Positions 11,341-42,136 of a stretch of 45,992 bases of DNA are shown piece by piece. A program made the position numbers and the translations under genes. Below the pieces are notes generated by a model that worked only from the letters and a program-made list of their open reading frames with translations, made no database searches and had not been told where the DNA came from. The stretch lies in NCBI GenBank assembly GCA_035653615.1, contig DASRBN010000029.1:1-45992 (forward strand), given 5' to 3'. Source of the stretch: Ktedonobacteraceae bacterium (GTDB taxonomy: Bacteria; Chloroflexota; Ktedonobacteria; Ktedonobacterales; Ktedonobacteraceae). Each line of letters starts with the position of its first letter. Within the stretch, counting starts at the first letter, position 1.

Positions 11341-12021
11341 ATGACTGACACACTTCGGGTGACGCTCGAAATCGGCCCAAAAGGCAAGCAGGTGGCGGCG
11401 GTAGCGCCAGATTGGCCCGGCCTCGAGCGTGGCGCCAGGACCGCGGAGGCTGCGATTGCACGATTGCAAGCCTACCTGCCACGCTACGCACCGGTGGCGA
11501 ATCTGGCGGGGATGGGTGCGCAGTTCGAGGCCTGCGCTACTATTGAGGAGGTCGAGCGCTATCAGGGCACAGGGTCCACAGACTTCTGGGGTATCTCGTT
11601 CGCGTTCTCGGACATCGACCGGCAAGTCATGTCGAGCGCAGAATTGGAACGCGAACTGACGCTGCTGCAGGCGTGCTGGGCGTTTTTCGACGAGGTTCGT
11701 TCGCATGTGTCGGCAGAGATGCGGAAAGGCCCGCGTGGAGGCGGGCGCGATCGGGACCGCATCGTCCTGCATACATTGAGAGCGGAGCAGGATTGGGCTG
11801 CGAAGCTCGGGGTGCGCACCCCTGACACTACGATTCTGACCGACGAGGGCCTGAGAGCGCACCGTGAGGCCTATTGTCAGGCCATTCGGGCATTCCATGC
11901 CCAGGGCAAACTGGCCCGCACCTGGCCACTGCGGTATCTGATCCGGCACACTGCTTTTCACACGCTGGATCATGCGTGGGAGATGCAAGACAAGAACCTG
12001 CTGGCGGCTGGTTACCCTTAG
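11341..12021 (+). CDS. DinB-like superfamily protein
   Basis: 226 residues. The C-terminal part carries RHTAFHTLDHAWEMQD, a His-rich helix like the metal-binding helices of the DinB/YfiT four-helix-bundle superfamily, and an HTLRAEQDWAAKLG helix lies upstream. The N-terminal 60 residues (TLRVTLEIGPKGKQVAAVAP, then DWPGLERGARTAEAAI) resemble a small beta domain like those of HicB-type proteins. Members of this superfamily act in thiol or metal-dependent transferase chemistry, but the substrate cannot be told. GGAGGAATCG directly precedes ATG 11341; the frame is open from 11275 but that extension lacks a ribosome binding site. The last four bases overlap the convergent gene at 12018. Confidence 0.7.
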   Translation: MTDTLRVTLEIGPKGKQVAAVAPDWPGLERGARTAEAAIARLQAYLPRYAPVANLAGMGAQFEACATIEEVERYQGTGSTDFWGISFAFSDIDRQVMSSAELERELTLLQACWAFFDEVRSHVSAEMRKGPRGGGRDRDRIVLHTLRAEQDWAAKLGVRTPDTTILTDEGLRAHREAYCQAIRAFHAQGKLARTWPLRYLIRHTAFHTLDHAWEMQDKNLLAAGYP

Positions 12022-12749
12022 ACTTGAAACGGGGCAATCTCTCCAAATCCCGCTTTTTGAAAGACCCCATTGCAGGCCTGCTTTGCCTGAGTTCTTAGAT
12101 TCTCAGGGAAACTTCCCAAATGGGCGAGAAAGTCCTGTCCCATGTACACCATGAGCATCATGGCGTCCTGCTCTCGTCCATTGTTTCGAAGAAATGCAGC
12201 ACGATTCGCAGCTGCTTGCAACGCGTAAATCCATGCATCAAGGTCAGCATGCTGAGCCGCTTCACCAAATAGCACCTGGCTAGCAAGTACCTGCGTAACA
12301 TTTTGAGAATTGATAGCGCCAGTCCGTATTTGTGTGAGCGCGTTCACCATTGGACGGACATGCAGGAAAATCTCATGGTACAGGGCCGACTCCAGACGGG
12401 CCATCGGCCATCCTACCTGCGGATAAATTTGCAGCCAGATATGCGGGTTTCCTTGCCCCAACAAGTTCTTGACAAGCTCTGCTACTTGTGCCATGTCTTG
12501 TTTCTCGCCAATTAACTCATTCAGGCGCTGTTCACCAACTGCTCCCAGGGCGGTATTGGCATCTCCTGTTCCTTGCAACAGCAGGAGATCGAGATCGATC
12601 TGGTTACTCTGCCCCAGGTTCTCCAGCAGTTTATGACGCATCTTGAGCTCATTGATGATCTCGTTAAGTGCCTCAGAAAGTGAATCTCCGTCTTGTACAA
12701 TGAATCCGTTGTCAACTTTCAAACCAGACAGGTTCTGTCCACTGATCAT
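12018..12749 (-). CDS. Hypothetical protein downstream of the LanB-like gene
   Basis: 243 residues, mostly predicted helix, soluble, no Cys-rich or catalytic motif I recognise. It contains SLSEALNEIINELKMRHKLL (about residues 23-42), a central ALYHEIFLHVRPMVNALTQI helix and a C-terminal AWIYALQAAANRAAFLRNNG stretch. The open frame begins at 12980, but ATG 12749 has GAGAGG six bases upstream and starts MISGQNLSG. A candidate promoter with an adjacent palindrome lies at 12976-13020. Position 292 bases downstream of the dehydratase-like gene on the same strand makes it a possible accessory protein of that system, though the long leader and separate promoter argue for independent expression. Function unknown. 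Confidence 0.72.
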   Translation of the reverse strand: MISGQNLSGLKVDNGFIVQDGDSLSEALNEIINELKMRHKLLENLGQSNQIDLDLLLLQGTGDANTALGAVGEQRLNELIGEKQDMAQVAELVKNLLGQGNPHIWLQIYPQVGWPMARLESALYHEIFLHVRPMVNALTQIRTGAINSQNVTQVLASQVLFGEAAQHADLDAWIYALQAAANRAAFLRNNGREQDAMMLMVYMGQDFLAHLGSFPENLRTQAKQACNGVFQKAGFGEIAPFQV

Positions 12750-13040: not shown

Positions 13041-15659
13041 TTAGTCCTGAGCGGGTCGTAGCAAATCAACGGCTACGAAGCGCAATTCGCTTGTATAGCG
13101 CCGCTTCTCTGCATCAGGCAACCATACCTCACCGGGAGCAGGCAGCATTTCCGACATCAGGATCGTCGCTTCTGACGGATTCGCGCGCATCGTCTGGCGT
13201 ACCAGTTTCGCGAAACTATCGACATAGATGGGGCTATCAAAATCAATGAAGCAAGGTTTGGGTTCGTCCGGCACCTTGACGAAGACAAAGCGGGGCAGTT
13301 GATGTAGCTGCATCCAGCGCCGGGCAGCCATGAAACGTTCCGCGGCATCCTTCTCATCGGCGAATGGTATCTCGACCGGCGCAAAGCGCCAGCTTTCACG
13401 TATCATCACCAGGCGATCAATCGTGACACGTGGCGTATGCCTGCCCGGACAAACAATCTTGAAGCAACTGCTTACCATCCACGAAAGGAATTCCGCAAAT
13501 ACCTCGATGATATCAAAGCACAACGCTCCATCGCGTGTGCGTACCACCAGTTCCTCTTCCCATTGCTCAACGACCAGGGCGCTGATCGGCAATGTCCGCG
13601 CATCGGAAGCACTATATGCATCAGGCGCGTATATCAGGCGGTAATCTTTAGGCGTGATGAGCGCGGGCCGCCCGCGCGAGATTGGAAAGGAGCGGCGCGA
13701 CATCACAGGTAGCACGCGCGGCTCAGGTATATCAATTGCGGCATCGCGTAGAAGAGCATCGCGGTCGGGATATTGTTCCAAAAAAGCCGAAGCTTGCAGT
13801 GTATTCATGGCGATATGCAGTTCGCCCAGGATGATTTGATAGTCACCTGCGCGAATAGCTTCAGGTCCTGATGCCTGGATTAACACGTCTGGTGAGTGAT
13901 AGCAGGCAGCTCTCCATCCCGGCCCGGGCGCGTCGAAGGTCGTCAGCACATCCAGCAGTAGCTCGTCACTGGTGAATACCCTGGAATGTTGCTCTTCGGA
14001 AATATTGAGAATGTGTAACCACCGTTGCTGGAAGTCGGCAATGAGCGCCTTCACCGGCATCACCTCTTCATCGATCAGCAGCGGTTGCACCCAGAGCCAG
14101 AAACTGGCGAAATCCACCGTGCGCGAACCTGTGTGTTCAACCATCTCGTCAAAGGCATCCCGCAAAGCCTGCCGGTAGATTGAGGCCGTCTGGTAGGTAA
14201 ACCAGCGCGCGCTGATCAGCAAGAGCGTCAGCGGTTCGCTAAAAGCCAGCAGAAAATCCGGCCCCAGCTCTACATCAATAGCACGCAGGCAATCCTCATA
14301 CACCAGCGTCCTGGCCGCGTAAGCCTTGCCTGCCGAACGCGAAGCATCCCTCCCGGTCAGTTCGCTAAAAGTCGCTTCTAAATGGGCCAGCGCTGCATCT
14401 AACTTCTCAGCGTTATGAGCTGCATGGGCCACGCCATCTCTGGCCGCCTCCAGCATATTGAGCATCGCCAGGCACTCTTCTCGTACCTGTGCATCATCTA
14501 TGCCTTCAAGAACCTGCCGGAGTACCTTTTCGGGATGCGCTCCATCCGCGGGCATTTCAAGCGACCACGCAATTCGTTTCATGGCCTGCAGTTGCTCAAG
14601 AACAGAGTAGACTTCTTGTTCGCTGTTCAAACTGTTGGAAGGCTTTCCGACCAGGTCAAGCGCCAGTTCCTTTGCTGTGCGCGTGCCATCGCAAGCCGAA
14701 AGCACAGCCGCCTCATCTCGACTCAATTGAACTGGCCTGGAAAATGGCAGCGAAAGCGTCGTTCCCTCCACATGTATTTGCGGCAGGCGACGCGGCGCTA
14801 CCCATGGTCTCAGCTGCTTTTCTTGCATGAGCTTCTCAGCAAAGGCATCGATGCACCATGTTTCAAAATACACGCTGCGCTTCGCCAGCAAGTCTTTCCC
14901 TACACGAACCGTCATCGCCTCCCCGGTAGAGGTAAGCGCGGCCAGACCAAAAGGACCAAAAAAACCAATCGTATCATTCTTCGTGCAGTATCGTTGTAGA
15001 TAGTTTGCTGCCAGCGCTTCGTGCTTGCGCCGGTTAGAAGTTGGTGGCGCGCTTTCTGACAGCGGTTGCATTAATGATGCGATTCCCGTTTGCATGGCGT
15101 GGCGATTTTGCCAGGTAATCGCCTCACGAAAACGTTCATCGTGCGCAATTGTGCGAATGGCCTGCGATATGTGAGAGGCTTCGCATTGATAAGCATGTTC
15201 AAAGTCTGACTGCATTCTCCGAACATGCTCCTGGGCTAGAAGATAGGCTTCCAGTTCCGCGCAAACAGGGGCTGTACTGAGCGAGGCATCAGGAACCTGA
15301 TTCTTTTTGATCGCTCGCTTGAGCTTGAGGAGTGCGATACGTTGTGCATCATTGACCAGGCTCAGTTTGCTGTTGATCGCCTGCAATAGCTCGTTTTTCG
15401 CCCTTACCGCTTCTGCTTCAGCGGAAATCAACGCATCGGCGGCAGCTGCGCACCCTGGCGCGGCCAGTTCGAGTACCTGCGTCACCGGAAATCCTGCCCC
15501 GCGCAGGCAGACGCAGCGCCACAAGGCCCATTCAGGATCGATCAGGCCGGTGAGATGGTCCGGTAGAGGAGTATCATCCAGGGCCGATACATCGGCGGTG
15601 TGCGCGATAAATCGGCCCTCACGTTCCTCCTCAACCATTGGAGAAAATTCTTTGCTCAT
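13041..15659 (-). CDS. LanB-type lantibiotic dehydratase family protein
   Basis: 872 residues. The body matches the LanB N-terminal (tRNA-dependent glutamylation) domain family: RYCTKNDTIGFFGPFG at about 223-238 is the counterpart of the conserved Arg/Lys...PFG core, and the C-terminus has the family ending FVKVPDEPKPCFIDFDSPI, then EMLPAPGEVWLPD and YTSELRFVAVDLL. I see no separate SpaB_C elimination domain. Known members use glutamyl-tRNA to dehydrate Ser/Thr in lanthipeptides; relatives (PEARLs) add amino acids to peptide ends. No LanC cyclase or SpaB_C partner is in the window, so a classical lanthipeptide is not supported. The start ATG overlaps the stop of the upstream 67-residue ORF (ATGA) and lacks a strong ribosome binding site of its own, so translation is probably coupled. 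Substrate unknown. Confidence 0.85.
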   Translation of the reverse strand: MSKEFSPMVEEEREGRFIAHTADVSALDDTPLPDHLTGLIDPEWALWRCVCLRGAGFPVTQVLELAAPGCAAAADALISAEAEAVRAKNELLQAINSKLSLVNDAQRIALLKLKRAIKKNQVPDASLSTAPVCAELEAYLLAQEHVRRMQSDFEHAYQCEASHISQAIRTIAHDERFREAITWQNRHAMQTGIASLMQPLSESAPPTSNRRKHEALAANYLQRYCTKNDTIGFFGPFGLAALTSTGEAMTVRVGKDLLAKRSVYFETWCIDAFAEKLMQEKQLRPWVAPRRLPQIHVEGTTLSLPFSRPVQLSRDEAAVLSACDGTRTAKELALDLVGKPSNSLNSEQEVYSVLEQLQAMKRIAWSLEMPADGAHPEKVLRQVLEGIDDAQVREECLAMLNMLEAARDGVAHAAHNAEKLDAALAHLEATFSELTGRDASRSAGKAYAARTLVYEDCLRAIDVELGPDFLLAFSEPLTLLLISARWFTYQTASIYRQALRDAFDEMVEHTGSRTVDFASFWLWVQPLLIDEEVMPVKALIADFQQRWLHILNISEEQHSRVFTSDELLLDVLTTFDAPGPGWRAACYHSPDVLIQASGPEAIRAGDYQIILGELHIAMNTLQASAFLEQYPDRDALLRDAAIDIPEPRVLPVMSRRSFPISRGRPALITPKDYRLIYAPDAYSASDARTLPISALVVEQWEEELVVRTRDGALCFDIIEVFAEFLSWMVSSCFKIVCPGRHTPRVTIDRLVMIRESWRFAPVEIPFADEKDAAERFMAARRWMQLHQLPRFVFVKVPDEPKPCFIDFDSPIYVDSFAKLVRQTMRANPSEATILMSEMLPAPGEVWLPDAEKRRYTSELRFVAVDLLRPAQD

Positions 15660-15859
15660 AGGCCTGATCTCTCGTGTTTCAAAAAAAAGCCACAGAAGCG
15701 CCAGATATATTGCCAGGAAACAAGCATGCCAACAGAGAAAAGCGTTTTACCGACCCCGTTCATTATTACAGTCATAAATCCGATCAAGAATCCTATAACA
15801 AGGCCGCATCTTCCTGCCGGATGCTGTACAATGCGCGAGATGTGCCGGAATTCGTCCAT
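15656..15859 (-). CDS. Small hydrophobic peptide, translationally coupled to the LanB-like gene
   Basis: 67 residues. The start ATG at 15859 is preceded by AAGGAGGG seven bases upstream, one of the strongest ribosome binding sites in the window, and the stop TGA overlaps the ATG of the dehydratase-like gene. The N-terminus is polar (MDEFRHISRIVQHPAGR). The centre is hydrophobic with Gly (CGLVIGFLIGFMTVIM and LFSVGMLVSWQYIWRFCGFF), and the tail is KHERSGL. It contains two Cys, several Ser/Thr and two Trp. It could be a precursor peptide for the dehydratase-like enzyme, a small membrane anchor, or only a leader that couples translation. No known precursor family is recognised. Confidence 0.55.
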   Translation of the reverse strand: MDEFRHISRIVQHPAGRCGLVIGFLIGFMTVIMNGVGKTLFSVGMLVSWQYIWRFCGFFLKHERSGL

Positions 15860-16118
15860 GGAACACCCTCCTTACGCGCAATTTCGCTATTGAATCACAG
15901 AAATGGGCAACTTGAATACAGTACTCCGCTTTAAGCATACAGAAGAACCCCTCGTTCGTCATGCCGGGCAAACAGTATTTTTCTTGCATTCGAAAGTGCA
16001 TATAGGCTGCTTGCCCTGGTGAAAGTAGAAAAAATACCGTGATGAGCGCATGACAGCGCCTGCTTTCTCAAGTACTCTTCTCTTGAGAAGGCAGAACTCG
16101 AGGAAGGAGTAACGCGAA
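15860..16118. promoter_or_regulatory. Divergent intergenic region between the LanB-like and ABC operons
   Basis: 259 bp separating divergent transcription units, so it should hold promoters for both. I see AT-rich stretches (near 15905-15945 and 15970-16010) but no -35/-10 pair good enough to place. A GGAAGGAG ribosome binding site for the ABC gene ends the region. Confidence 0.4.
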
Positions 16119-17117
16119 ATGGGAAGTGTATCTCAGCCTGCTGCCATTGAGATCGACTCTTTAAGTAAAACATACGTTAAACGCAAGAAGACGGCGATCA
16201 AGGCGGTAGAGGATGTAAATCTGCGCGTACCGGCAGGGCAGGTATTCGGCTTTCTTGGTGCGAACGGCGCCGGGAAAACAACCACTATCAAAATGATCTG
16301 CGGCCTCGTCACTCCAACTTCAGGGCGCATCCGTGTCAATGGATACGATGTGTTCCGCGAGCATAGTGCGGCGATGCGCCAGATTGGTGCGGTGTTGGAG
16401 GGAACTCGCAACGTCTACTGGCGACTCTCCGCCTGGCAGAACCTGGTCTATTTCAGCCACCTCAAGGGACATACCGGTAAGGAAATGCGCGTGCGTGCAG
16501 AACAACTGTTGCGCGAACTTGATCTTTGGGAGCGCCGCAACGACCCTGTACGTCTCTACTCGCGCGGCATGCAGCAAAAAGTCGCCATCGCCTGCGCCCT
16601 GATTGCCAATCCATCCATCGTGCTGCTCGATGAACCAACTTTAGGCCTTGACATCCAGGCTACGCGCACAGTCAAAGAATGGATAGCAAAACTGGCGCGC
16701 GAACAGGGCAAGACCGTGATTCTAACCACTCACCAGTTAGATATGGCCCAGGACCTCTGCGATCAAATCGCCATTATGCGCAAGGGGCGCCTGCTCACTA
16801 ACCAGCCACTCGCCGAACTGCTGCACCTCTTCCAGCAAGAATACTACCAGATTCGCCTCAAAGGTACGCTGGATGAAGAATATTCCGACTGGTTCGATGG
16901 ACTGACCCGCGAGATGGAAAATGGCGATACCATTCTTTCAGGCGCTATTAGCGATCAGGCCACCTTGCACGCATACCTGGCTCGCGTGCGCGATTTAGGC
17001 CTGCCCCTGCTTTCGGTAACGCAGGTTGAGCCGAATTTAGAAGATGTGTTTCTGCGCCTCATAGATGATAGAGCGAAAGGAGAAGCCAGTGAGGATCGCG
17101 CTCTTAGCCATATTTAA
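16119..17117 (+). CDS. ABC transporter ATP-binding protein (ABC-2 / DrrA-like)
   Basis: 332 residues: the ATPase of an ABC-2 type exporter. Walker A GANGAGKTTT (about 49-58), signature region YSRGMQQKVAIACAL (a variant of LSGGQ common in the DrrA/NatA group), Walker B SIVLLDEPTLGLD and the H-loop LTTHQLD are all present. The last 90 residues form the accessory C-terminal domain typical of DrrA-like subunits. GGAAGGAG precedes ATG 16119. It overlaps the downstream permease gene by 29 bases. As first gene of the plus-strand operon with MbtH, thioesterase and precursor genes, it probably exports the product or gives self-resistance; this is context-based inference. Confidence 0.92.
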   Translation: MGSVSQPAAIEIDSLSKTYVKRKKTAIKAVEDVNLRVPAGQVFGFLGANGAGKTTTIKMICGLVTPTSGRIRVNGYDVFREHSAAMRQIGAVLEGTRNVYWRLSAWQNLVYFSHLKGHTGKEMRVRAEQLLRELDLWERRNDPVRLYSRGMQQKVAIACALIANPSIVLLDEPTLGLDIQATRTVKEWIAKLAREQGKTVILTTHQLDMAQDLCDQIAIMRKGRLLTNQPLAELLHLFQQEYYQIRLKGTLDEEYSDWFDGLTREMENGDTILSGAISDQATLHAYLARVRDLGLPLLSVTQVEPNLEDVFLRLIDDRAKGEASEDRALSHI

Positions 17118-17877
17118 TGAGACGTACAAACGTCTGCTGGTTATGTGGGATTACAAGTTCAACGTTTTGACCCAGCTCGTCACCATAGGATTGATCTTCA
17201 TCGGCGCTACCTACTTCATTGGTGGTGGCCAGTTCAATCCATCACAGGTAACTTCCATATTCCTGGGATATATCGTCTGGTTCTACGCCCGCATCGTCAT
17301 CATGAATACCAGCGCCGACCTGATAAACGAAGCAGAGGGCGGCACGCTCGAGCAGATGTACATGACCCCTACCAGAACCGAACTCCTCGTACTGGGCAGG
17401 ATGCTGGCCACCCTGATTTCGACCTCGATCATGGTTTTGCTCACCGCCCTCGCCCTGATCTTCATCCTGGGCATCCATTTCCCCTTACGCTGGGATGGAT
17501 TGCTCGTCCTGTTGCTCACCCTGGCCGGACTGCTGGGTTTCACGCTCATCCTTGGGGGAGCGGCGCTGGTATTCAAACAGGTCGATGCACTGGCGGACCT
17601 GATGCAAAATGCGTTGCTATTCCTGACCGGCTCGCTGCTTCCCGTCAGTCACTTTCCGAACTGGTTGGCGGATATCGCGAAGACGCTGCCGATCACGCAG
17701 GGCATCATCGTATTGCGCAACATAGAATTGAATGGTCAATCCCTGGCCACCACCTGGGCCAACGGCAGTCTGCTCTGGCTCATCGTGCATTCCGCCATCT
17801 ACCTGAGTACCGGCTGGATCATCTTCAAATGGTGCGAACGGATTGCCAAACGGCAAGGCTCTTTGAGTCAGTATTAA
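17089..17877 (+). CDS. ABC-2 type transporter permease
   Basis: 262 residues with six hydrophobic segments in the ABC-2 permease pattern; GGTLEQMYMTPTRTELLVLG after the second TM is the characteristic coupling-helix region. The GTG at 17089 is chosen because AAAGGAG (17075-17081) lies seven bases upstream; the frame is open from 17065. It starts inside the preceding ATPase gene, so the two are translationally coupled and form one exporter, probably a homodimer of each subunit. The C-terminal helix is followed by KWCERIAKRQGSLSQY. Confidence 0.9.
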   Translation: MRIALLAIFNETYKRLLVMWDYKFNVLTQLVTIGLIFIGATYFIGGGQFNPSQVTSIFLGYIVWFYARIVIMNTSADLINEAEGGTLEQMYMTPTRTELLVLGRMLATLISTSIMVLLTALALIFILGIHFPLRWDGLLVLLLTLAGLLGFTLILGGAALVFKQVDALADLMQNALLFLTGSLLPVSHFPNWLADIAKTLPITQGIIVLRNIELNGQSLATTWANGSLLWLIVHSAIYLSTGWIIFKWCERIAKRQGSLSQY

Positions 17878-17905
17878 ATTAAATAAGGAAGAAAGGAACG
17901 TGTCT

Positions 17906-18676
17906 ATGCTCAGTTCAGAAATTTCGCCGCCGCGCACGCAGACAGAAGCACAGGTGCGCGTCGAGAACATCTCTAAAGTGATTGCGAACAAAGCGGCTCG
18001 GGCCGTTATTCTGGACTCGATCTCGTTTTCGATTCCGCCTGGCAGCCTCTTTGCCATCAACGGCCCATCGGGAAGCGGTAAGTCCACGCTGCTCAATATC
18101 CTGACCGGCATCGACCGTCCAACTTCGGGGCGCGTCGTGTTCGCGGGCCAGGAACTGCGCAATATGAGCGAGAATAAGCTGGCGAAGTGGCGTGGGCGCA
18201 ACGTTGGCATTGTCTTCCAGTTCTTCCAACTCCTGCCAACGCTGACGGCTCAAGAAAACGTCCTGCTGGCGCTGGAACTCGGTGGTCTGCTGCCGCGGCG
18301 TCAATGGAGCGAGCGATCATTAGCATGCCTGGAACTGGTCGGTTTGAAAGAGTTCGCGCGACGCCTGCCGGGCGAACTCTCCGGCGGCCAGCAGCAGCGT
18401 GTTGCCATAGCGCGCGCGCTGGCCAATGACCCGCCCGTACTGGTCGCCGATGAGCCGACCGGCAACCTGGACTCAAAGTCTGCCTTGCAGGTGTTTGAAA
18501 TCCTTGAATCAATGACCCAACGCGAAAAAACGGTCATCTACGTCACTCATGATCGCGACTTAGCGGCTCGCGCCCGGCATCGCATCGACCTGCTCGACGG
18601 CCGCATCGTCACGCCTGTAGGCCCCGATTTATCGTGGGCATCGCCGGTTCATCGGCCTGGGAGGGAAAACTCATGA
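17906..18676 (+). CDS. ABC transporter ATP-binding protein (MacB/LolD type)
   Basis: 256 residues. Walker [11 protein letters not shown]-loop [16 protein letters not shown], signature [15 protein letters not shown], Walker [14 protein letters not shown] and VTHDRDLA identify the MacB/LolD/FtsE-type ATPase group, which works with FtsX-like permeases. ATG 17906 lies seven bases after GAAAGGAA; a GTG at 17900 is also in frame but too close. The last 15 or so codons (after about 18617) consist of a dispersed repeat, so the C-terminus appears to have been extended by repeat insertion. The stop overlaps the start of the permease gene (ATGA), indicating tight coupling. Confidence 0.92.
18617..18661. 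repeat. GGCCGATTSATCGGCC-type repeat overlapping an ABC ATPase 3' end
   Basis: TAGGCCCCGATTTATCGTGG, then GCATCGCCGGTTCATCGGCC, matches the two-part palindromic repeat found intact at 21244-21287 and 33541-33609. Here it lies inside the coding sequence and encodes the end of the MacB-type ATPase. Confidence 0.6.
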
Positions 18677-21021
18677 CGGCGCTGACGAAAAAAGTCTTTA
18701 AGGATATTGGGCATCGCAAGCTGCGCACCATCCTGACCATCCTGGGCATTGCCATCGGCATCCTGGGCCTCTCGGCAATCAATATCGCCTCGAACCAGTT
18801 TCGCAGCAGCTTCGACTATAGCACCAACATCACGACGCAGCCCGATATCATCTTCTATACCTCTCCGACCAGCGCGTCGTTGGCGCAAACACTACAACAG
18901 CAGCCCAACGTCAAAATAGCGCAGGCCCAGGGGTACATCAATACTTCCTGGTATACCAACTCACTGCAACTGCCTTTGCGCATCATCGGCGTGGTCGATT
19001 TCCAGCATGTGCAGATCAACAAGTTCGAGCTGGTCGAGGGGAGTCTTCCCGGCCCGAATCAGATTTTGCTCGAATATAGTGATAAGGCGCTAAGCAACGT
19101 CGGCGTCGGCTCGCAAATAGCGGTGCAGATTGGTGGTTCGTATCGCAACCTGACCGTTTCCGGCTTTGCCCGCACAATGGGGCTGGCGTCTGCATCCATC
19201 GTGCAGCGCGCGCAGGGATATATGAACGAAAGTGACGTTGAAACGCTCTTCTCAACACCGGGCGTCACCTCGTTTCTCATCCGGCTGAATAACTACGACC
19301 AGCGGGACGCTACCGCGAAGCAGCTTGCGCAGGTCTTGAATGACCAGCACGTGCTGGTATTCGCCACCTATGTTGGCCGCGATACCAGCGTCTCAAGTGT
19401 CGCCGACGGTTTGTTTGCCATCATGAACGTCCTCTCGATTATCGCCATCTTGCTCAGCATCTGCCTGCTGCTGGGTACGGTCATGACGCTGGTCACGGAG
19501 CAGATTCCGTATATCGGCACCATGAAGGCTATTGGGGCGACGAGCGGCAAGGTGATGCGTCATTATCTGAGCCTGGTTGCCATCTATAGCGGCATCGGCA
19601 CGCTCATCGGCCTGGCCATTGGCACATTTGGTGGCTATGCGCTTGCCAACTACCTCGGTGGACTGGTCGGCCTGGATATGGGGCCGCTGCAAATTACTCC
19701 TTCGCTGATTATCGAAAGCGTATTGATCGGTATAGGTATTCCGCTACTGGCAGCAGCTATTCCTGCTTACATTGGTACGCGCATCTCGGTTCGCCAGGCC
19801 TTGAGCGGTTACGGAGTGGAGAATGGCGCCGGGCAAACCGGCGGCTGGTGGGCGGCTCTCTCACGTCGTGCGTTGGGCATGTTGCCACAGACGATGCAGT
19901 TTGGCGCGCGCGGCCTCTTTCGCAAGCGTATTCGTACCGTCCTCACACTGCTGATCCTGATCATCTCAGCAGCAGCATTTCTCGCCGTGCAAACGGCCAG
20001 CTACTCCTTTAATACGTTCCTGGATCAGATATCCAGCACCTATCATTTCGATGTGCTGGCTGCCACCGCCGACCCGCATCCGTTCAGCACGTTCCAGCAC
20101 GTCCTGAGTACCATACCCGGCATCACCCAGATTGAACCGTTGACCCAGGACCAGGTTTCGACGCAATGGGGCAATGCCGCGTTGACTGGTCTGCAAATCG
20201 ATACCCGGCTCTATCAAAAGCAACTGGTCGCCGGTCGCTGGTTTAACAGTAGCGATCAAAACGTCGCCATCATCAGCCAGGATGCTGCCGCTAAATCGGG
20301 CCTCAAGGTCGGCGATTCGATCACCATCAGTATCAACTCGGCCAGCGCGACCTGGCGCATCATCGGCATCGCCACCGACTACAGCGGCATCGGGCCGGGC
20401 AATCTTGGCGTGGTGATCGCTCCCATCGCGCAAATCGACGACTTCATGCACCTGCCGTCGGACTACAGCGAATTTGCCATGATAGCGTCCTCGAATCACT
20501 CGACAACTGCCGTCGATGCGCTGGCAAATCGTGTCAATACCACCATGAGCGCCGCCGGCCTGCAGCCGAATGTCACTACATCCAACCAGTTTGTGCAGCA
20601 GAGCAAGAGTACGTTTCAGATTATCTACACCTTGCTTGATCTCGTGGCGCTCATTGTCGCCATTGTTGGGGCCATCGGACTCGCCAATACGCTGGCGATG
20701 AGCGTGCTGGAGCGCAGACGCGAGATCGGCATCTTGCGTTCCATGGGAGCGACCGGCAGGAAGGTTGCGCAGGTGTTCTGGACAGAAGGGACGGCGCTAG
20801 GTACCCTTTCCTGGCTATTGGCGCTGATTATCGGCATACCCGCCGCCTACGGCTTCGTGCAGGTACAGGCGCATTACCTGGCCCCCGTACCATTCTCGTT
20901 CAACTTTCTGAACCTGGTATGGATGCTGGTCATCATTCTGCTGATCGCCTCGCTTGCGAGTATCGGCCCCGTATTCAGCGCCGCTCGCGTGAAAATCGCC
21001 CAGACCTTGCGTTACGAGTGA
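18673..21021 (+). CDS. FtsX/MacB-like ABC transporter permease (two FtsX domains)
   Basis: 782 residues. An N-terminal TM (KLRTILTILGIAIGILGLSA) is followed by a MacB periplasmic-core-like domain and a first FtsX domain (three TMs near residues 250-370). Then a second half repeats the plan: TM at VLTLLILIISAAAFLAVQTA, extracytoplasmic domain, and a C-terminal FtsX domain with MSVLERRREIGILRSMGATG, the most diagnostic stretch. The start overlaps the ATPase stop by four bases; GGGAGGG precedes it. Proteins of this type are mechanotransmitters or exporters rather than classical channel transporters. Being inside the biosynthetic operon suggests efflux or immunity toward the product. Confidence 0.9.
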   Translation: MTALTKKVFKDIGHRKLRTILTILGIAIGILGLSAINIASNQFRSSFDYSTNITTQPDIIFYTSPTSASLAQTLQQQPNVKIAQAQGYINTSWYTNSLQLPLRIIGVVDFQHVQINKFELVEGSLPGPNQILLEYSDKALSNVGVGSQIAVQIGGSYRNLTVSGFARTMGLASASIVQRAQGYMNESDVETLFSTPGVTSFLIRLNNYDQRDATAKQLAQVLNDQHVLVFATYVGRDTSVSSVADGLFAIMNVLSIIAILLSICLLLGTVMTLVTEQIPYIGTMKAIGATSGKVMRHYLSLVAIYSGIGTLIGLAIGTFGGYALANYLGGLVGLDMGPLQITPSLIIESVLIGIGIPLLAAAIPAYIGTRISVRQALSGYGVENGAGQTGGWWAALSRRALGMLPQTMQFGARGLFRKRIRTVLTLLILIISAAAFLAVQTASYSFNTFLDQISSTYHFDVLAATADPHPFSTFQHVLSTIPGITQIEPLTQDQVSTQWGNAALTGLQIDTRLYQKQLVAGRWFNSSDQNVAIISQDAAAKSGLKVGDSITISINSASATWRIIGIATDYSGIGPGNLGVVIAPIAQIDDFMHLPSDYSEFAMIASSNHSTTAVDALANRVNTTMSAAGLQPNVTTSNQFVQQSKSTFQIIYTLLDLVALIVAIVGAIGLANTLAMSVLERRREIGILRSMGATGRKVAQVFWTEGTALGTLSWLLALIIGIPAAYGFVQVQAHYLAPVPFSFNFLNLVWMLVIILLIASLASIGPVFSAARVKIAQTLRYE

Positions 21022-21343: not shown

Positions 21344-22114
21344 ATGCCATCTCTATCGACAACAGCTACAACCGCCTGGATTTTTGGAGCAAGGCCCAAT
21401 CCGCAGGCCCGCTTTCGCCTGTTCTGTTTCCCCTATGCTGGGGGCGGCGCGTCGATTTATCGCACATGGCTGAATGGATTGCAGGCCGAAGTCGAAGTCC
21501 TGCCGGTTCAGCTTCCTGGACGTGAGAATCGCCTGAAAGAGTCGCCTTTTGACCGGTTTGAGTCCTTGCTGGAGGCCCTTGTCGAGGCGCTGCATCCATT
21601 TTGTACCGTTCCTTTTGCGTTTTTCGGGCATAGCATGGGGGCGCTGGTCAGTTTTGAACTGGCGCGCTGGTTGCGCAGGCAGTATAGTCTCCTTCCGGTG
21701 CATCTTTTTGCCTCGGCCTATCGCGCCCCGCAAACACCGATTGTAGGGCCGCTGCTGCACACGCTGCCGGAGCCTGCCTTAGTTCAAAAATTGTTGCAAC
21801 TCAATGGCACGAGCCGCGAGGTTCTGGAGAACGATGAGCTGCGGCAATTCCTGCTGCCCATCCTGCGCGCGGATTTTGCCGTGTGTGAAACCTACCATTA
21901 TGAACCTCAAGAACCGCTCGCCTGCCCGATCACTGTCTTCGGCGGCTTGCAGGATACAAGGGTCAGTCGTTTTGAACTGGCTTTATGGCGCGAGCAGACC
22001 TGCAGCCGTTTCTCGCAGCGCATGCTCCCCGGCGACCACTTTTTCTTGCAGAGTGCCAGGGCCTCACTGCTGCAAATCATACGACAGGAACTGAATGCAT
22101 ACCTGATATCCTGA
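21344..22114 (+). CDS. Type II thioesterase (alpha/beta hydrolase)
   Basis: 256 residues in the GrsT/TEII family: N-terminal FCFPYAGGGASIYRTW, nucleophile motif GHSMGA (Ser about residue 95), acid in FGGLQDTRVS and catalytic His in PGDHFFL. The length is normal for the family. These stand-alone enzymes remove wrongly loaded or stalled acyl groups from carrier proteins of PKS and NRPS lines. Because the last NRPS module ends in a reductase and not a thioesterase domain, this protein is better seen as an editing enzyme than as the release factor. GGAG precedes ATG 21344; the next gene starts 13 bases after its stop. Confidence 0.95.
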   Translation: MPSLSTTATTAWIFGARPNPQARFRLFCFPYAGGGASIYRTWLNGLQAEVEVLPVQLPGRENRLKESPFDRFESLLEALVEALHPFCTVPFAFFGHSMGALVSFELARWLRRQYSLLPVHLFASAYRAPQTPIVGPLLHTLPEPALVQKLLQLNGTSREVLENDELRQFLLPILRADFAVCETYHYEPQEPLACPITVFGGLQDTRVSRFELALWREQTCSRFSQRMLPGDHFFLQSARASLLQIIRQELNAYLIS

Positions 22115-22127
22115 TAAAGGAGAAACC

Positions 22128-23090
22128 ATGTCGATACACATATCTGCGGAAGAAAATGCCTCGCTGGCCGAGTTGCAGCACACTCCGATTGATACGGTGC
22201 TGAACATCATCGACCAGGGGCTGGTGCATCTACCCTCGTACCGCGAATTATATTATCGCTGGGAACGCCAGCAGTGGCGCGCGCAGGATATCGACTTTGT
22301 GCCTGATCGCATTCAGTGGGAACTGATGCCGGATGAGGAGCAAGAGGAACACCTCTATAGCATCGCTTCCTTCTTCCAGGGCGAGGCGAGCGTCACAGAT
22401 GCGCTTGCACCCTACGTGATCGCCATGCCCGAAGAAGAGATGCGCATCTATGTCACAACGCAGCTGGTTGACGAATCGCGGCACACCATCTTCTTCGCGC
22501 GTTTTTTCAGCGAGGTGCTTGGCATTGACGAAGGGCTTCTAGAAGAATCCCTGGCCTTCGCGCGCCAATATATGAATGTGCAGATGCGCTATATTTTGAT
22601 CGACGCGCTTATGGAGATGGCCGACCGTATCCGCTGCCAGCCTGGCAATCTCCATCAATTGATCGAGGGCGTTACCCTGTACCACGTGATTATCGAAGGC
22701 ACCATGGCTCTGGCGGGCCAGCGTAACCTTTTGGAGACCTATCGCCAGGATAACCTCTTCCCGGCCTTTCGCAGCGGCTTCACCGCCGTCGCGCGTGACG
22801 AATCGCGGCACGTCATATTCGGCGTGAAGTTCCTGCGCGATATGCTCAAACGCGACCCTGAACATGCACACGTAGTACGCGCCGCTCTCGAAAAATATGC
22901 TCCCCCGGCCCTGGCTGCGTTGCGACCACCCGATGACGTGATTCCATCGATGCTGGCCATGAATCTCGACCCCTGGACGACGCAACGGTACGGCCTGGAA
23001 TCGCTGCGGAAAAAACTCAAAGTCATTGGTTTGTCTATGGAATTACCCGCTGTACCTGGATTCGAGGATGTTCTGTCAAAGAGTCAATGA
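22128..23090 (+). CDS. R2-like (ribonucleotide reductase small subunit-like) di-iron protein
   Basis: 320 residues of ferritin-like helical fold. All six metal ligands expected of the R2/R2lox superfamily are present: E86 (FFQGEAS), E116 and H119 (VDESRHTIFF), E190 (IIEGTMA), E225 and H228 (RDESRHVIFG). The first ligand is Glu instead of the Asp of typical R2. There is no class I large subunit nearby, so true ribonucleotide reduction is unlikely. R2lox proteins and related di-iron oxygenases oxidise small substrates. In this operon it most plausibly hydroxylates or otherwise oxidises a precursor or carrier-bound intermediate, but the substrate cannot be inferred. AAAGGAG precedes ATG; it is 12 bases from the sbnA-like gene. 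Confidence 0.85.
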   Translation: MSIHISAEENASLAELQHTPIDTVLNIIDQGLVHLPSYRELYYRWERQQWRAQDIDFVPDRIQWELMPDEEQEEHLYSIASFFQGEASVTDALAPYVIAMPEEEMRIYVTTQLVDESRHTIFFARFFSEVLGIDEGLLEESLAFARQYMNVQMRYILIDALMEMADRIRCQPGNLHQLIEGVTLYHVIIEGTMALAGQRNLLETYRQDNLFPAFRSGFTAVARDESRHVIFGVKFLRDMLKRDPEHAHVVRAALEKYAPPALAALRPPDDVIPSMLAMNLDPWTTQRYGLESLRKKLKVIGLSMELPAVPGFEDVLSKSQ

Positions 23091-23102
23091 GAGGAGCAAT
23101 CT

Positions 23103-24146
23103 ATGAATCCCATATTGATGGCTCCCTCGGATGTTGCCGATCTTACTACAGTCGAACTCCGGCAACTGGTAGATCAAATCGGCGGCACTCCTTTAAAGCC
23201 AGTAATACTTGTAATCGAGGGCAGAGCGCGCAAGGTCTATCTCAAACTTGAGGGCGCGAATCCAACCGGTTCGGTCAAGGATAGGACAGGCTCTGCCCTG
23301 GTAAGAGACCTGGAAGAGCGCGGCCTGCTCAAAAAAGGCTCGGTCGTGATTGAATCCACCTCAGGTAATCTGGGTGTGGCGCTGTCCATGCAATGTAAGG
23401 CCAGGGGCTATGATTTCATCGCCGTCGTCGATCCCAAGACTACACAGGAGAACATTACCAAAATGCAGTCGCTTGGCGCGCAGATCGATATGGTAAGCAC
23501 TCCTGATGCGAATGGCGGCTACCTGCTCTCGCGCCTGGAACGCATACGTCTTCTATGCCGGTGCTTCTCGCATTATGTCTGGACAGACCAGTACTCCAAT
23601 CCGGCAAACCCATTCATTCACTATACGACCACAGGGCCTGAGATGTATCGTCAGATGAACGGAAAAGTAGACGCGGTCTTCGTACCTGTCTCCACAGGTG
23701 GCACGCTTGCCGGTGTCGGGCGCTATTTTCGTGAATGCAGTCCATCGACCGCAGTTGTAGGAGTGGATGCTAAGGGGTCGGTCGTCTTCGGCACGCCACC
23801 CGCTCCACGCAGGCTGACCGGCATTGGTTCCTCGCGTCCTTCCAGCTTTCTCACGCGCGACCTGTATGATGTGCATATACTTGTGGGAGACGAAGAGGCT
23901 TTTGCCTGCTGTCGCGCCTTAGCTACCAGAACAGGCATTCGAGCAGGTGGCTCAAGTGGGGCGGTACTCGCAGCCTGCGCGCGCTATCTACAGCTTCATC
24001 CAGAAATACAGGACGTAGTCTGCCTCTGTGCGGACGATGGCAACAACTACGCCGCCTCGATTTTTAACGATGAATGGCTGCGGACGCATGGATTGTATGT
24101 TTCATCTGATTGCCCCTGGCCCATCCAGGATATACTTCGCGCTTAA
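23103..24146 (+). CDS. sbnA: SbnA-like 2,3-diaminopropionate synthesis enzyme (PLP-dependent)
   Basis: 347 residues of the cysteine synthase (fold type II PLP) family. The PLP lysine is K59 in NPTGSVKDRTG, and the phosphate/substrate loop is STSGNLGVAL. The region VSTGGTLAGVGRYFRECSP and the C-terminal AGGSSGAVLAACARYL complete the fold. It resembles SbnA in length and in having SbnB next door. SbnA joins O-phospho-L-serine and L-glutamate to N-(1-amino-1-carboxy-2-ethyl)-glutamate, the first step to L-2,3-diaminopropionate. A cysteine synthase role is less likely given the partner gene. AGAGGAG precedes ATG 23103. It provides a building block for the two diamino-acid-type A domains in the convergent operon. 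Confidence 0.92.
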   Translation: MNPILMAPSDVADLTTVELRQLVDQIGGTPLKPVILVIEGRARKVYLKLEGANPTGSVKDRTGSALVRDLEERGLLKKGSVVIESTSGNLGVALSMQCKARGYDFIAVVDPKTTQENITKMQSLGAQIDMVSTPDANGGYLLSRLERIRLLCRCFSHYVWTDQYSNPANPFIHYTTTGPEMYRQMNGKVDAVFVPVSTGGTLAGVGRYFRECSPSTAVVGVDAKGSVVFGTPPAPRRLTGIGSSRPSSFLTRDLYDVHILVGDEEAFACCRALATRTGIRAGGSSGAVLAACARYLQLHPEIQDVVCLCADDGNNYAASIFNDEWLRTHGLYVSSDCPWPIQDILRA

Positions 24147-24184
24147 AACACACTGTATGGACGCTATTCTCAAGGGAGCGAGCT

Positions 24185-25237
24185 ATGATAAAGCATCAAG
24201 ATGACCGGATTCTCTACCTGGCAAGCAGAGATGTGCAAGAGGTCTGTAAGGAAATCGATAGCGTGGCTGTGATACGCGAGGTGTTCAAGCTGCATGGTTC
24301 TGGCCAGACAATCCTTCCCGACGAGGCCTACCTGGGCTGGACAAACGCAAAAGGCGAGAGCGTCCGAAGCCTGAACATGCCGGCCTATGTAGGCGGCCCA
24401 TTTGGCATGGCCGGAACCAAGATCATCAACGGCAATATCGCCAATCCTGCGCGCGGCCTACCGCGTGCGAGCGGATTGACGCTGCTTTTCGATCCGGTCA
24501 CGGTGCGCGTCGTTTGTATGATGGAAGGCGCCTATATCTCCAGCCTGCGTACTGCCAGCGTCACTGCTCTCTCAGCAGACCTGCTGAAAGGCAGGGAGAT
24601 ACAGACCCTGGCCATCATTGGAGCAGGCGTGCTGGCTCGCGCGCACATCGAACTGCTCGTCATGCGACTTCCCGGCTTGCGGCACATACGACTATTCGAC
24701 CTGGAAGAGCAGCGAATCGAGACGCTACAGCAACAAGTGGCTTTCATACTGAAATCGAGAGGCGTAGAGATGCAGGCAACGAAAACTGCTGAAGAGGCCA
24801 TTCGCCCGGCGCAATTGATCGTCCCCGTAACCACGACGACCCAGGGCTACATCTCATATGACTGGCTGCAACCCGGCTCGCTGCTCGTCAACATCTCGCT
24901 TGATGACCCCTTGCCGGAAGTGGTACTTCGCGCCGATAAGGTAATCGTGGATGACTGGAACCTGGTGAAAAACGATCCTCGTCGCCTGGTCGGACGCATG
25001 TACCGGCAAGGGAAGGTCATCGGGCCTGACGATTCCATTGAAGCCACAGCAAGTGGCAGACGTCGCATCGATGCGCAGTTAGGCGAGATTGTCACCGGTG
25101 CGAAAGCAGGTAGAACCAACGAAAATGAGATCATCCTGGTCAATCCCTTCGGACTCGCCATCGAGGATGTCGCTCTGGCCATAGAAGTGTACCGGAAGGC
25201 GCGGAAAATGGGTATGGGCGTGGAGTTGGAACGATAG
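24185..25237 (+). CDS. sbnB: SbnB-like 2,3-diaminopropionate synthase (ornithine cyclodeaminase family)
   Basis: 350 residues of the ornithine cyclodeaminase/mu-crystallin family. The dinucleotide-binding motif is AIIGAGVLARAHIELL (about residues 142-157), preceded by SSLRTASVTALSADLL. SbnB uses NAD to cleave the SbnA product oxidatively into L-2,3-diaminopropionate and 2-oxoglutarate. The adjacent sbnA-like gene strongly favours this over a cyclodeaminase. The frame is open from 24110, but ATG 24185 follows AAGGGAG and starts MIKHQDDRILYL, the natural beginning of the family. It is the last gene of the operon, followed by a strong hairpin. Confidence 0.92.
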   Translation: MIKHQDDRILYLASRDVQEVCKEIDSVAVIREVFKLHGSGQTILPDEAYLGWTNAKGESVRSLNMPAYVGGPFGMAGTKIINGNIANPARGLPRASGLTLLFDPVTVRVVCMMEGAYISSLRTASVTALSADLLKGREIQTLAIIGAGVLARAHIELLVMRLPGLRHIRLFDLEEQRIETLQQQVAFILKSRGVEMQATKTAEEAIRPAQLIVPVTTTTQGYISYDWLQPGSLLVNISLDDPLPEVVLRADKVIVDDWNLVKNDPRRLVGRMYRQGKVIGPDDSIEATASGRRRIDAQLGEIVTGAKAGRTNENEIILVNPFGLAIEDVALAIEVYRKARKMGMGVELER

Positions 25238-25352: not shown

Positions 25353-28300
25353 TCACACCCCGCTCCTCACCCCCGCAGCCTGCAAGAATCCCCTCTTCAC
25401 CATAAACGAGAGATACGTCTGTATCAGGCTGGCATCGCCGGGCGGGCAGGTGATCGACGTGCCAGATAGGCCGAGCTGCGTATTGCGGTTGTCGAATTCC
25501 AGTTTGGGAACCGGGGCCTGCTCGGTTGGCGCTCGCTTCGGGAAAAGTGGGGCCAGGGGAGCCAGCGCGTTATCGGTCGAACCTTGTGTGGCACGTTCCA
25601 GTTCCGCGAGCCAGGCCTCGTATTCAAGCTGCCGAACTTCGTAGCCAGAGTCATTGATCCACTTAATCAGGTCGCTGACCCTGGTTGTAGAAGTATTGAA
25701 GAGGTGGAAGGCCTGGCCCAGCGAGGCTTTGCGCTTCGAAAGTGCGACGATGGCCTGGCTGACGTAGTCCACCGGGGTCATTTCCAGCGTTTCGTCCGCG
25801 ACGAACATGGGAACGCTGCCAAGCTGGATACATCCCATAATCATGCGGCACAGCACATCGTCCGTTCTCCATGCTCCCGTCTTGCTGTGGCCCGTAATAC
25901 GACCGGGACGGTAAATGGCGACGGGCAATCCACGCGAACGCGCCGTTGTCACCATCTTTTCGGCCACCCATTTGCTCTGCGCGTAGCCCCCGCGCATATG
26001 GGCGCCATGCTCGTCGATAGGCTCCTGCTCTTTAACGCGCCGCACGGTTGGAGAATCCATATGAGAGTAGACGCTGAGGGTCGAGACGTAGTGCAGCGGC
26101 TTGATCTTACCGTGCGCTGCCAGCCGTATTACTTCCTGCGTGCCAAGCACATTTGACGCCTTTAGCTCCGAGTACGGGTAGAGCATGTTCACCAGCGCGC
26201 CATTGTGATAAATGACATCCAGCCGATTCGCGAGCTCCTCGAATGCGTGCCTCGAAAGGCCCAACAATGGTTGAGCCAGATCGCCGGGTATCGGTTTGAT
26301 GCGCTCGCGATAGGCCGGTTGCCAGAGCAATAAGCCGGTAAGGCTGCGTTCCAGTTTCTTCATGCCCTCCTCGGTATTGGCGGCACGCACAAGACAATAG
26401 ATATCCGCGGATGTCTGGCTCAGAAGTTCCGCCAGTAAAAAGGCTCCCAGGAAGCCGGTGGCGCCCGTCAGCAGGATGTGCGCGGGAGTGGCAGTCAGTT
26501 CGCCCGGCCAGACTTCAGGGCAGACCGCGAGATCGAGCGCGGCTTCGCTGTGCATATCGAAGGTGGGCAACTGCGTCTCCGCTGCCGGCGACCAGAGAGA
26601 GGCTTCATGTTGTTGGCGGCTCAACATCTCGGCCAGCGCCTCAATTGTCCTGCCCTGGAAGATGGCCGCCAGCGGCAGGCGTTTCCCGAACTGCTTTTCG
26701 ATCTGAGATACCAGGCGCACCGTCAAGAGGGAGTGACCGCCGAGGTCAAAGAAATCGTCATGCACTCCGATACGCTCCACACCCAGTATCTCGCTCCAGA
26801 TGGCTGCCAGTTCCTGTTCGATAGGTGTGCGTGGGGCCACGTATGCTACCGCCAGTACCGGCCTGGATTCATCGGGAACGGGTAGGGCTTTACGATCCAG
26901 CTTGCCATTGGGCGTCAGGGGAAGAGAGTGCATGAATACCCCCGCGGATGGCACCATATAATCGGGCAATTTCTCTCGCACGAAGTGCTGCAATTCCTCA
27001 AAGGAGATGGACTCTTCGGCGTGCAGCACGACGTAGGCTACCAGGCGCTTATCTCCCTCGACATCTTCGCGCGCCACCACGACCACATCGCGCACCGCTG
27101 GATGCTGGCCCAGTACGGTTTCGATCTCCCCCAGCTCGATGCGGTAGCCACGCAGTTTGACCTGGTGGTCGACGCGACCCAGGAATTCTAACGTGCCGTC
27201 AGGCCGGTAGCGAGCCAGGTCTCCCGTCTTATAGAGCCGCGTACCACCCTGAGATTGGGATGCAGTGAAATCGTTTGCATCGAAAGGATTGGGTATGAAC
27301 GTTTCAGCCGTGCGCCGGGGGTCTGCCAGGTAGCCGCGACCGACTCCCGCGCCGCCAACATACAATTCGCCCACCACGCCAATTGGCACCGGCCTCAAGC
27401 GGCGATCCAGCACATACAGCCGCGTATTGTTCACGGCTCGTCCAATCGGCATGTAGCCCTCGGACTCAGCAGGAACTTCATAAATCGAATGGTGCGTCAC
27501 GTCGTCGGAACACTCGGTCGGGCCGTAGGCATTCATGAGCGGGCAATGGGGATAAAGGGCCAGCCAGCGGCGGCACAGGTCGGTGGGCAGCGCCTCGCCG
27601 GTAGGAACGAGCCAGCGTAATTCACGCAAATTCGGGCGAGTTTCCGCACTGCCTTCGTAGATCTCCAGCATGGCGCGCAGCAGCGAGGGAACGGTTTCCA
27701 GAATGCTCACACTATCTCGCTCGACTTCGATGAGCAGCCGCGTGGGGTCGTGCGCGATCTCGTCGGGGTAAATGCGCACGCTGCCGCCGACCAGCAGAGC
27801 GGCCAGCATTTGCCAGACGGAGATATCGAAGCACTGCGAGGCTGTCTGGGCCACAATGTCGGTATCGGTCAATTCTAGCGCGTCGATTTTCGCGTAGAGG
27901 TGATTGATCATGCCGCGCTGCTCGACCATCACGCCCTTTGGCGACCCGGTCGAACCTGAGGTGTAGATGACATAGGCCAGGTGGCCAGGGGTATTGCGAA
28001 CCGGCAAGTTTTCCGTCATCTGCCCTTCTTCGCGGAAATCGTCAAGGTAGACGATTTCCGGGCGCGTCTCCGGCTCCATCTGCTCTATGACTTCTGAAAG
28101 CGTGGGGGCGAATTCGCGTGTAGAAAGGATGATGCCACACCTGCTATGTTCGAGGACGTGACGCAGGCGGGCCGGTGGATGATGCGGATCAAGTGGCAGG
28201 TAAGCGCCTCCCGCTTTGAAAACGGCCAGGATGGCGGTCAGCAGAGGGATGCCGCGTGGGGCAAGTAGAGCGACAAGTGTGTCCGGCCCAAAAGTACGTG

Positions 28301-30023: not shown

Positions 30024-30069
30024 ATTCATCCTTTCGACAGTACAGCATCCAGATGGTCGTGTTCATCTC

Positions 30070-33000: not shown

Positions 33001-33513
33001 CATCTCTCTTTCGAGATGGAATGGGCGCTCCAGCTCTTCTTTCACCTTCCTCTGTACAGCGGCCTCGCGTTCTGCCGCCGGTATGCCGCGCAGGTCGATG
33101 AAAGGCAATGTCAGATTCAGGTGAAAGGTGGGATCGATGACCTGCACGGCCTGCCCATCGATCATCGGAAAGGTGCTGCGCAGGATTTCGTGCCGGCGCG
33201 TGATCTCTCTTGCGGTCTGCGTGAGCGCCTCGACGTTCAACTTGCCGCGCATATAGACGGCTATTGGCTCATTGTAGGCGGAACTTTCTGGCTCCAACCG
33301 CTGTAAGAACCAGAGTCGCTGCTGCGCGAACGATAATGGTGCCGGGCCGCGCTCTTTTTCCTGTGATGGCTCGATTTCAGGCGGTTCAAGGGTTGCTGTC
33401 CTGCCTGCGGGAGATGCCGGAACGCGCATATAGCGCAGGCGTTTTTCCAGCAGCGCCTGCTTCGCGGCGGAAAGCTCGGCGCGTCGTTTCAAGAAGGTAT
33501 CCTCTGTATTCAT
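30070..33513 (-). CDS. NRPS module: C-A-T, predicted diamino-acid specific
   Basis: 1147 residues. A short N-terminal linker (AELSAAKQALLEKRLRYM) precedes a condensation domain with HHIITDGWS (192-200). The adenylation domain has YTSGSTGTPKG and code residues D719 I720 W723 E762 I792 T794 A818 D826 D827 K1019 (DIWEITADDK). The carrier domain has FFEAGGHSLL (S1076). No epimerase or methyltransferase is present, so the incorporated residue should stay L. The A domain differs from that of the next gene mainly by the absence of the repeat insertion, suggesting module duplication. By position it accepts the polyketide from the second PKS module and passes the chain to the terminal NRPS, whose start lies 40-odd bases downstream. 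The ATG at 33513 has AGAAGAGAG upstream. Confidence 0.95.
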   Translation of the reverse strand: MNTEDTFLKRRAELSAAKQALLEKRLRYMRVPASPAGRTATLEPPEIEPSQEKERGPAPLSFAQQRLWFLQRLEPESSAYNEPIAVYMRGKLNVEALTQTAREITRRHEILRSTFPMIDGQAVQVIDPTFHLNLTLPFIDLRGIPAAEREAAVQRKVKEELERPFHLEREMPWRTVLLQLDEQEHVSLTIMHHIITDGWSAEVFVKEIGVLYSSFAAGQTPPLPELKLQYADYARWQRRELESGRLDRQLAYWKRQLSGDLPILELPADHPRPAVSTYRGKRLPLRLPLSLSQELSALSRQEGVTLFMTLLAAFQVLLYRYSGQEDLLIGTPIAGRTRPEFEGLLGCFVNTLVLRTSLAGHPSFRALLKRVRQVTLGAYDSQDLPFEKLVEDLQPERSLSHNPLFQVMFILQNMPLADQELAGLTISQVALENNTAKFDLSLCLQETPEGLTGFIEYSTDLFEASTIERMAGHFQRVLEMIVANPEQKITAFPLLSESELEQQLNEWNATEKAYPIAQCFPALFEAQVERTPNAIAVVCQQEALTYRQLNRCANGLAHELRALGVGPDTLVGLLAERGIDLLTAILAVFKAGGAYLPLDPHHPPARMRHIIEHSHTALVLTSQSFVAQINATVTELAERPQILTLEDMLDRHWQGMENLQPVAEPHHLAYVIYTSGSTGTPKGVMIEQRGMLNHLFAKIDALQLTDADDVAQTASQCFDISVWQMLAALLVGGQVHILPDEIAHDPARLLSEVESWQISILETVPSLLRAMLDAPEADATGKPALSSLRWLIPTGEALPVDLCHRWLERYPHCPLMNAYGPTECSDDVTHHAISRPPAETERTIPIGRAIPNMRTYVLDAMLQPVPVGVSGELYVGGAGVGRGYLGEAARTAEAFIPDPFSNESGARLYKTGDLVRYRSDGTLEFLGRIDHQVKLRGYRIELGEIEAVLSRHVAIRECAVLVREDTPGNQRLIAYIVPQPGQNLQSDELSGYMKDILPEYMVPSAFVMMHALPLTANGKLDRKALPAPDQVDALSQAAFVAPRTPTEEELAKIWRDVLEVERIGIHDNFFEAGGHSLLITQVVARIRDAFEVELPLRVLFKTPTIAGVAEAIEKMKTRTDELRKPSLVAVAREAHRIQRSPLEEEGQ

Positions 33514-34751: not shown

Positions 34752-34782
34752 CGTTCTCGCTCCTTTCTTAGTTGATCAGTCG

Positions 34783-35955: not shown

Positions 35956-35967
35956 GATCGTTTGGCC

Positions 35968-36219: not shown

Positions 36220-36236
36220 TGTGTTGCCTTTCTTTT

Positions 36237-37091: not shown

Positions 37092-37232
37092 CTTCAGACC
37101 TCCTTCCAATAGTGAACTACTATACATCTTCTTATAGCCATTTGCTCCTGCCTCCTATCGCGGCAATTCATAGGGCGGATCAACGGGCAACAGGTAGCTT
37201 GTCCTTTCACAACCCATTCGAGGGTACTGAAA

Positions 37233-42125: not shown

Positions 42126-42136
42126 CTACTCCCCCT

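Follow-up and report, generated by a model that had tools for sequence, protein, structure and literature searches.

A probable PEARL-like amide ligase of the SnaE family, encoded with a PKS-NRPS locus of a Ktedonobacteraceae bacterium, and its overlapping small ORF

What is the role of a gene that would be annotated as a lantibiotic dehydratase beside a PKS-NRPS locus, and is the small ORF that overlaps its start the peptide on which the enzyme acts? Both genes lie in a 45,992-nucleotide stretch of DNA from a Ktedonobacteraceae bacterium, here called the window (contig DASRBN010000029.1, assembly GCA_035653615.1). The window spans an entire contig of a Ktedonobacterales-type genome, and shared contigs point to kinship with Dictyobacter and Tengunoibacter. 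The original prediction, made from the letters alone, had offered three answers: a new RiPP-type pair, a PEARL-like aminoacyl-tRNA ligase, or a tRNA-dependent tailoring enzyme of the PKS-NRPS product. The evidence below makes it likely that the enzyme belongs to the SnaE family of NRPS/PKS-associated PEARL-like amide ligases, and that the small ORF overlapping it is not the substrate of the enzyme or a partner of the family. The gene pair has the following features.

13041 to 15659, minus strand: PEARL-like enzyme, 872 amino acids, ATG start
13080 to 13088, minus strand: E858-x-R860, counterpart of Glu813-x-Arg815 in the PEARL BhaBC-Trp and of Glu801-x-Arg803 in TglB
13887 to 13889, minus strand: D591, proposed by position as counterpart of Asp558 (BhaBC-Trp) and Glu542 (TglB)
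14562 to 14801, minus strand: PqqD/RRE-like winged-helix region, residues 287 to 366, VIA-align Z about 7-8 to RRE and PqqD domains
14991 to 15002, minus strand: Y220-x-x-R223, proposed from motif spacing as the CCA-end binding pair (Tyr205 and Arg208 of BhaBC-Trp)
15501 to 15503, minus strand: R53, proposed counterpart of Arg34 (BhaBC-Trp) and Arg10 (TglB)
15656 to 15859, minus strand: small ORF, 67 amino acids, ATG start, a second copy, diverged in sequence, of a small hydrophobic protein of Ktedonobacteria (HMM E=5e-10)
15866 to 15873, minus strand: Shine-Dalgarno sequence AAGGAGGG of the small ORF, 6 nt before the ATG

Pfam detected Lant_dehydr_N as the sole domain of the enzyme (E=3.1e-33) and did not detect the SpaB_C elimination domain (PF14028), and neither LanC nor a protease was found by Pfam among the scanned genes of the window, in agreement with what had been read from the letters. 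Structure prediction against LanB enzymes, which the original prediction had proposed, gave an AlphaFold model (pLDDT 81.7) whose best solved match was the TbtB glutamylation domain (Z 22.6, rmsd 4.5, 711 residues); the LanB glutamylation domains of TbtB, NisB and MibB matched at Z 18-23. ATP-grasp glutathione synthases matched much more weakly, at a Z of about 6 that unrelated folds also reach, a result that would agree with the proposal of an ATP-grasp-like site in PEARLs. The gene downstream of the enzyme (12018-12746, also on the minus strand) matches no Pfam family and lacks homologues near other members of the enzyme family, and for these reasons it was not counted as part of the system. 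A promoter and terminator scan gave scores no better than those of shuffles.

The small ORF itself is as first described, with 67 codons, a strong ribosome binding site and a TGA stop that overlaps the enzyme start as ATGA (15656-15659, a 4-nt overlap). When a profile was built from 17 relatives with the window copy excluded, the small ORF matched it at E=5e-10, and no other of the 28,123 ORFs in the enzyme loci did. The match shows the small ORF to be more than an accidental reading frame. The relatives (L044-L060) are proteins of about 50-60 amino acids with the motif HPAGR-x-G and represent an unannotated Ktedonobacterial family; the small ORF had no significant match in Pfam, NCBIfam or PHROGs. 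One copy per genome was found in 16 other genomes of the bacterial family, in every case beside a GH15 gene and with no PEARL-like enzyme alongside. The genome studied here has both a canonical GH15-side copy (G000:C7) and the window copy, which belongs to the family by profile, does not lie beside a GH15 gene and has diverged from the family in its C-terminal third. Substitution is biased towards third codon positions: relative to its relatives the small ORF has 9-14 differences at second and 20-32 at third codon positions, of 38 codons. The bias would be as expected for a gene coding through most of its history, in a comparison that cannot isolate the window branch.

Pairing of the small ORF with the enzyme was predicted to show as conservation beside homologues of the enzyme, and there the prediction failed. 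The profile found the small ORF at none of the 77 other homologue loci, tblastn against those loci returned chance matches only, and no small ORF was shared upstream of the homologues besides carrier proteins and compositional frames. A conserved adjacent gene for a scaffold peptide, as would mark a RiPP-type PEARL, was not found. It is possible, though on balance doubtful, that the small ORF is a functional local partner, either as a small membrane protein anchoring the enzyme or exporter complex or as a leader that sets the enzyme level, and such a role would be compatible with a SnaE-type ligase. The descent from a real gene family, the hydrophobic protein with its helical model (of low confidence), the 4-nt overlap behind a strong Shine-Dalgarno sequence and the third-position bias are consistent with a local partner, but the small ORF occurs in no homologue locus, its C-terminal third is unlike the family and the junction could be viewed in the one genome available for the genus. 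A second, diverged copy of the small protein probably landed upstream of the enzyme in this lineage. We conclude that the small ORF is a real gene that is neither the substrate of the enzyme nor a family-wide partner, and that it at most couples translation or has a local, non-catalytic role. The case also cautions against reading a small ORF as a precursor peptide from a strong ribosome binding site and a stop that overlaps the next gene.

Glu813, Arg815 and Asp558 of BhaBC-Trp are the residues with which PEARLs bind ATP and the acceptor carboxylate; their counterparts Glu801, Arg803 and Glu542 were tested in TglB, and the Glu-x-Arg motif is needed for carboxylate phosphorylation in TglB; the CCA end of the tRNA is bound by Tyr205 and Arg208 of BhaBC-Trp (PMC11962472). 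With equivalences to TglB, BhaB and Amm assigned by motif and order rather than by direct alignment, the E-x-R motif (E858, R860) is kept in 77/77 homologues, as is R53, and SnaE has E, R and R at the three positions. Within the enzyme family D591 and R223 are each conserved in 78/78 and Y220 in 77/78. By contrast, the motif reads E-x-V/I in 13 LanBs of the same order, which are also without E613, a residue invariant in the enzyme family and SnaE; at the position of D591 the LanBs have D or E. The overall fold is common to the enzyme and the LanB glutamylation domains of TbtB, NisB and MibB, but these pair with an elimination domain, whereas the window enzyme has none in cis or in an adjacent gene, and the examined LanBs are without the ATP-site Arg that it carries as R860. 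The RiPP-type PEARLs TglB, BhaB and AmmB, like the window enzyme, have Lant_dehydr_N only, and they share with it the E-x-R motif and the Arg/Tyr positions proposed for ATP, carboxylate and CCA end; they differ in using a ribosomal scaffold peptide, a gene for which was not found beside members of the window enzyme's family. Elsewhere in the genome there are two other LanB systems, one split and one full length (G000:C41:108171-111493 and G000:C6:64875-67907). The only PF14028 domains of the genome are found at C41 and C6, and a trans-acting elimination partner for the window enzyme was rejected as both have LanB partners of their own.

A non-ribosomal precedent exists for such an enzyme. Genes for "lantibiotic dehydratases" are present in about two thousand NRPS/PKS clusters, and in-frame deletion showed that SnaE is needed for the addition of Thr to an NRPS-PKS ureido peptide, the bond being an amide and the acceptor the carboxylate left by a ureido-forming C domain (PMC11212132). 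One locus recovered here has the order A, C with EHHLVHDG, A, KS-AT, thioesterase, acyl-CoA dehydrogenase and enzyme, which is the sna order, and by this match it is almost certainly the published sna cluster (threopeptin, Stackebrandtia nassauensis). SnaE from that locus is 34% identical to the window enzyme over 766 positions and agrees with it at 24 of 25 sampled conserved positions, and in the tree it falls inside the same clade of 32 rows as the window enzyme (support 100/99), with the LanBs outside. Both systems have a stand-alone Lant_dehydr_N protein in an NRPS-PKS cluster and no precursor gene. Judged from sequence, the window enzyme is a further member of the SnaE kind. The predicted PEARL-like ligase, favored by the E-x-R motif in 77/77 homologues and by the homology and clade shared with SnaE, and the predicted tRNA-dependent enzyme of the PKS-NRPS product, favored by the NRPS/PKS linkage and the relation to SnaE, are supported as one answer, a SnaE-type enzyme.

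A glutamylation-type reaction, in which a tRNA-derived aminoacyl group would esterify a hydroxyl (for example of a hydroxymalonyl-derived polyol) without ATP, would account for TbtB as the best solved structural match and for the hydroxymalonyl-type extender set of the pathway, but is improbable given that R860 and E613, invariant in the family and SnaE, are absent from the 13 LanBs and that SnaE makes an amide (PMC11212132). Least likely is a RiPP or pearlin-type pair with the 67-residue peptide as precursor or scaffold and an enzyme that modifies it or adds a C-terminal amino acid, as the overlapping genes with their strong ribosome binding site, the RRE-like region of a fold that binds leader peptides in RiPP enzymes and the ribosomal scaffolds of RiPP-type PEARLs (PMC11962472) are set against a small ORF missing at the 77 other loci, relatives (the one in its own genome included) that adjoin a GH15 gene without such an enzyme, an enzyme grouping with SnaE, whose product is non-ribosomal, and the lack of a protease or other RiPP gene nearby.

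A SnaE-type reading places the enzyme in a non-ribosomal pathway, and the predicted PKS-NRPS locus is indeed present at 25353-45991 on the minus strand, cut by the contig end. The enzyme is encoded in this NRPS/PKS cluster, with nine kilobases of opposite-strand genes between it and the NRPS genes. The features beyond the gene pair are as follows.

16119 to 21021, plus strand: divergent ABC exporter genes, DrrA/B-like and LolD/MacB-like (Pfam, NCBIfam)
21344 to 25237, plus strand: type II thioesterase, R2-like diiron oxidase, SbnA-like and SbnB-like genes
25353 to 33513, minus strand: NRPS C-A-T-thioester reductase and C-A-T
33639 to 37127, minus strand: FkbH, acyl-CoA dehydrogenase, ACP and 3-hydroxyacyl-CoA dehydrogenase, a hydroxymalonyl-ACP-type extender set
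37233 to 45991, minus strand: two PKS modules KS-AT-KR-ACP, the first cut by the contig end

The SbnA-like gene, which scores just below the NCBIfam cut-off, and the SbnB-like gene suggest a predicted supply of 2,3-diaminopropionate. Unlike sna, the window adds hydroxymalonyl-type, Dap-type and reductase-release genes.

Linkage to NRPS/PKS genes extends across the enzyme family. Full-length homologues in the same order are 37-44% identical to the window enzyme, and 7 of their 8 loci have NRPS/PKS domains; in Dictyobacter kobayashii the homologue comes after an AMP-ligase gene. An alignment-based scan of genome contigs, where a single-sequence scan gave nothing, found homologues in six other phyla among the best 80 of 322 matches: Acidobacteriota, Cyanobacteriota, Actinomycetota, Gemmatimonadota, Myxococcota and Pseudomonadota. 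Among 69 loci drawn from those best 80 of 322 matches, a set from which duplicates with the own order had been removed, 59 have a C, A or KS domain, compared with 0/17 control loci of the own order, and in 47 of the 69 such a domain is co-directional with the enzyme and no more than 3 kb away. The enzyme family spans Chloroflexota to Cyanobacteria, Acidobacteria, Actinobacteria and Proteobacteria.

In some genomes the association is physical. A C-A-T module carries the enzyme at its C-terminus in Salinispora and Saccharothrix, and eight loci show an apparent C-terminal fusion to an NRPS module (L085, L091, L093, L096, L102, L103, L105 and L109), the C-A-T-enzyme fusion being verified by Pfam in L085 and L093 and indicated by tblastn in the other six. 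In the fusion loci the next C domain starts within 50 nt after the enzyme part. A further candidate, L104, was rejected when Pfam found no NRPS domain in that frame. At three actinobacterial loci (L116, L125 and L132) the small gene directly upstream of the enzyme encodes a free-standing carrier protein.

By analogy with PEARLs and SnaE, the enzyme would use ATP to phosphorylate a free carboxylate on an intermediate or product of the assembly line, an aminoacyl-tRNA would attack the phosphorylated carboxylate through its amine, and hydrolysis of the tRNA ester would release the extended product; the reaction, the amino acid and the acceptor are all proposed on this basis. The acceptor in particular may differ from that of SnaE. 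The two C domains visible in the window have the motifs MHHIVSDA and MHHIITDG, neither of which is the ureido signature EHHxxHDG, such that no ureido-forming C domain is found in the visible part of a cluster cut by the contig end. The signature was detected in sna by the same method and otherwise in 1 of 54 loci with an alignable C motif (L075 only; window included, sna excluded), a count made with flanks of at most 10 kb in which some may be missed. Should these two C domains be the ones that matter, we infer that the acceptor cannot be a SnaE-type ureido carboxylate. Moreover, the window synthetase ends in a reductase, with no obvious acceptor carboxylate in the visible part of the truncated cluster.

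A cluster of Cyanosarcina (G400:C50:116485-141233, L154-L157) has a comparable arrangement, in the order fatty acyl-AMP-ligase-like protein (FAAL), NRPS modules, hydroxymalonyl-type set (63-70% identical to that of the window), KS-AT and thioester reductase, and it ends in a homologue of the enzyme followed by an exporter. As a lipid-capped chain released by reduction would be the product, there is again no evident acceptor carboxylate. The absence of the ureido domain at nearly all sampled loci, together with the fusions behind carrier domains, raises the question of which carboxylate these ligases extend, and the missing ureido chemistry is a point worth following across the family. As a tentative proposal, held at somewhat less than even confidence, most NRPS-associated PEARL-like enzymes, the one in the window included, may operate without ureido chain reversal. 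They would then be amide-forming units of the assembly line that are coupled to carrier proteins, depend on tRNA, are in some cases fused as C-A-T-ligase and act on an undescribed acceptor carboxylate.

Members of the enzyme family were found in 147 of 355 genomes of the Salinispora family. A tandem pair of PEARL-like genes was observed at G401:C87:6832-12075 and also in many Micromonosporaceae.
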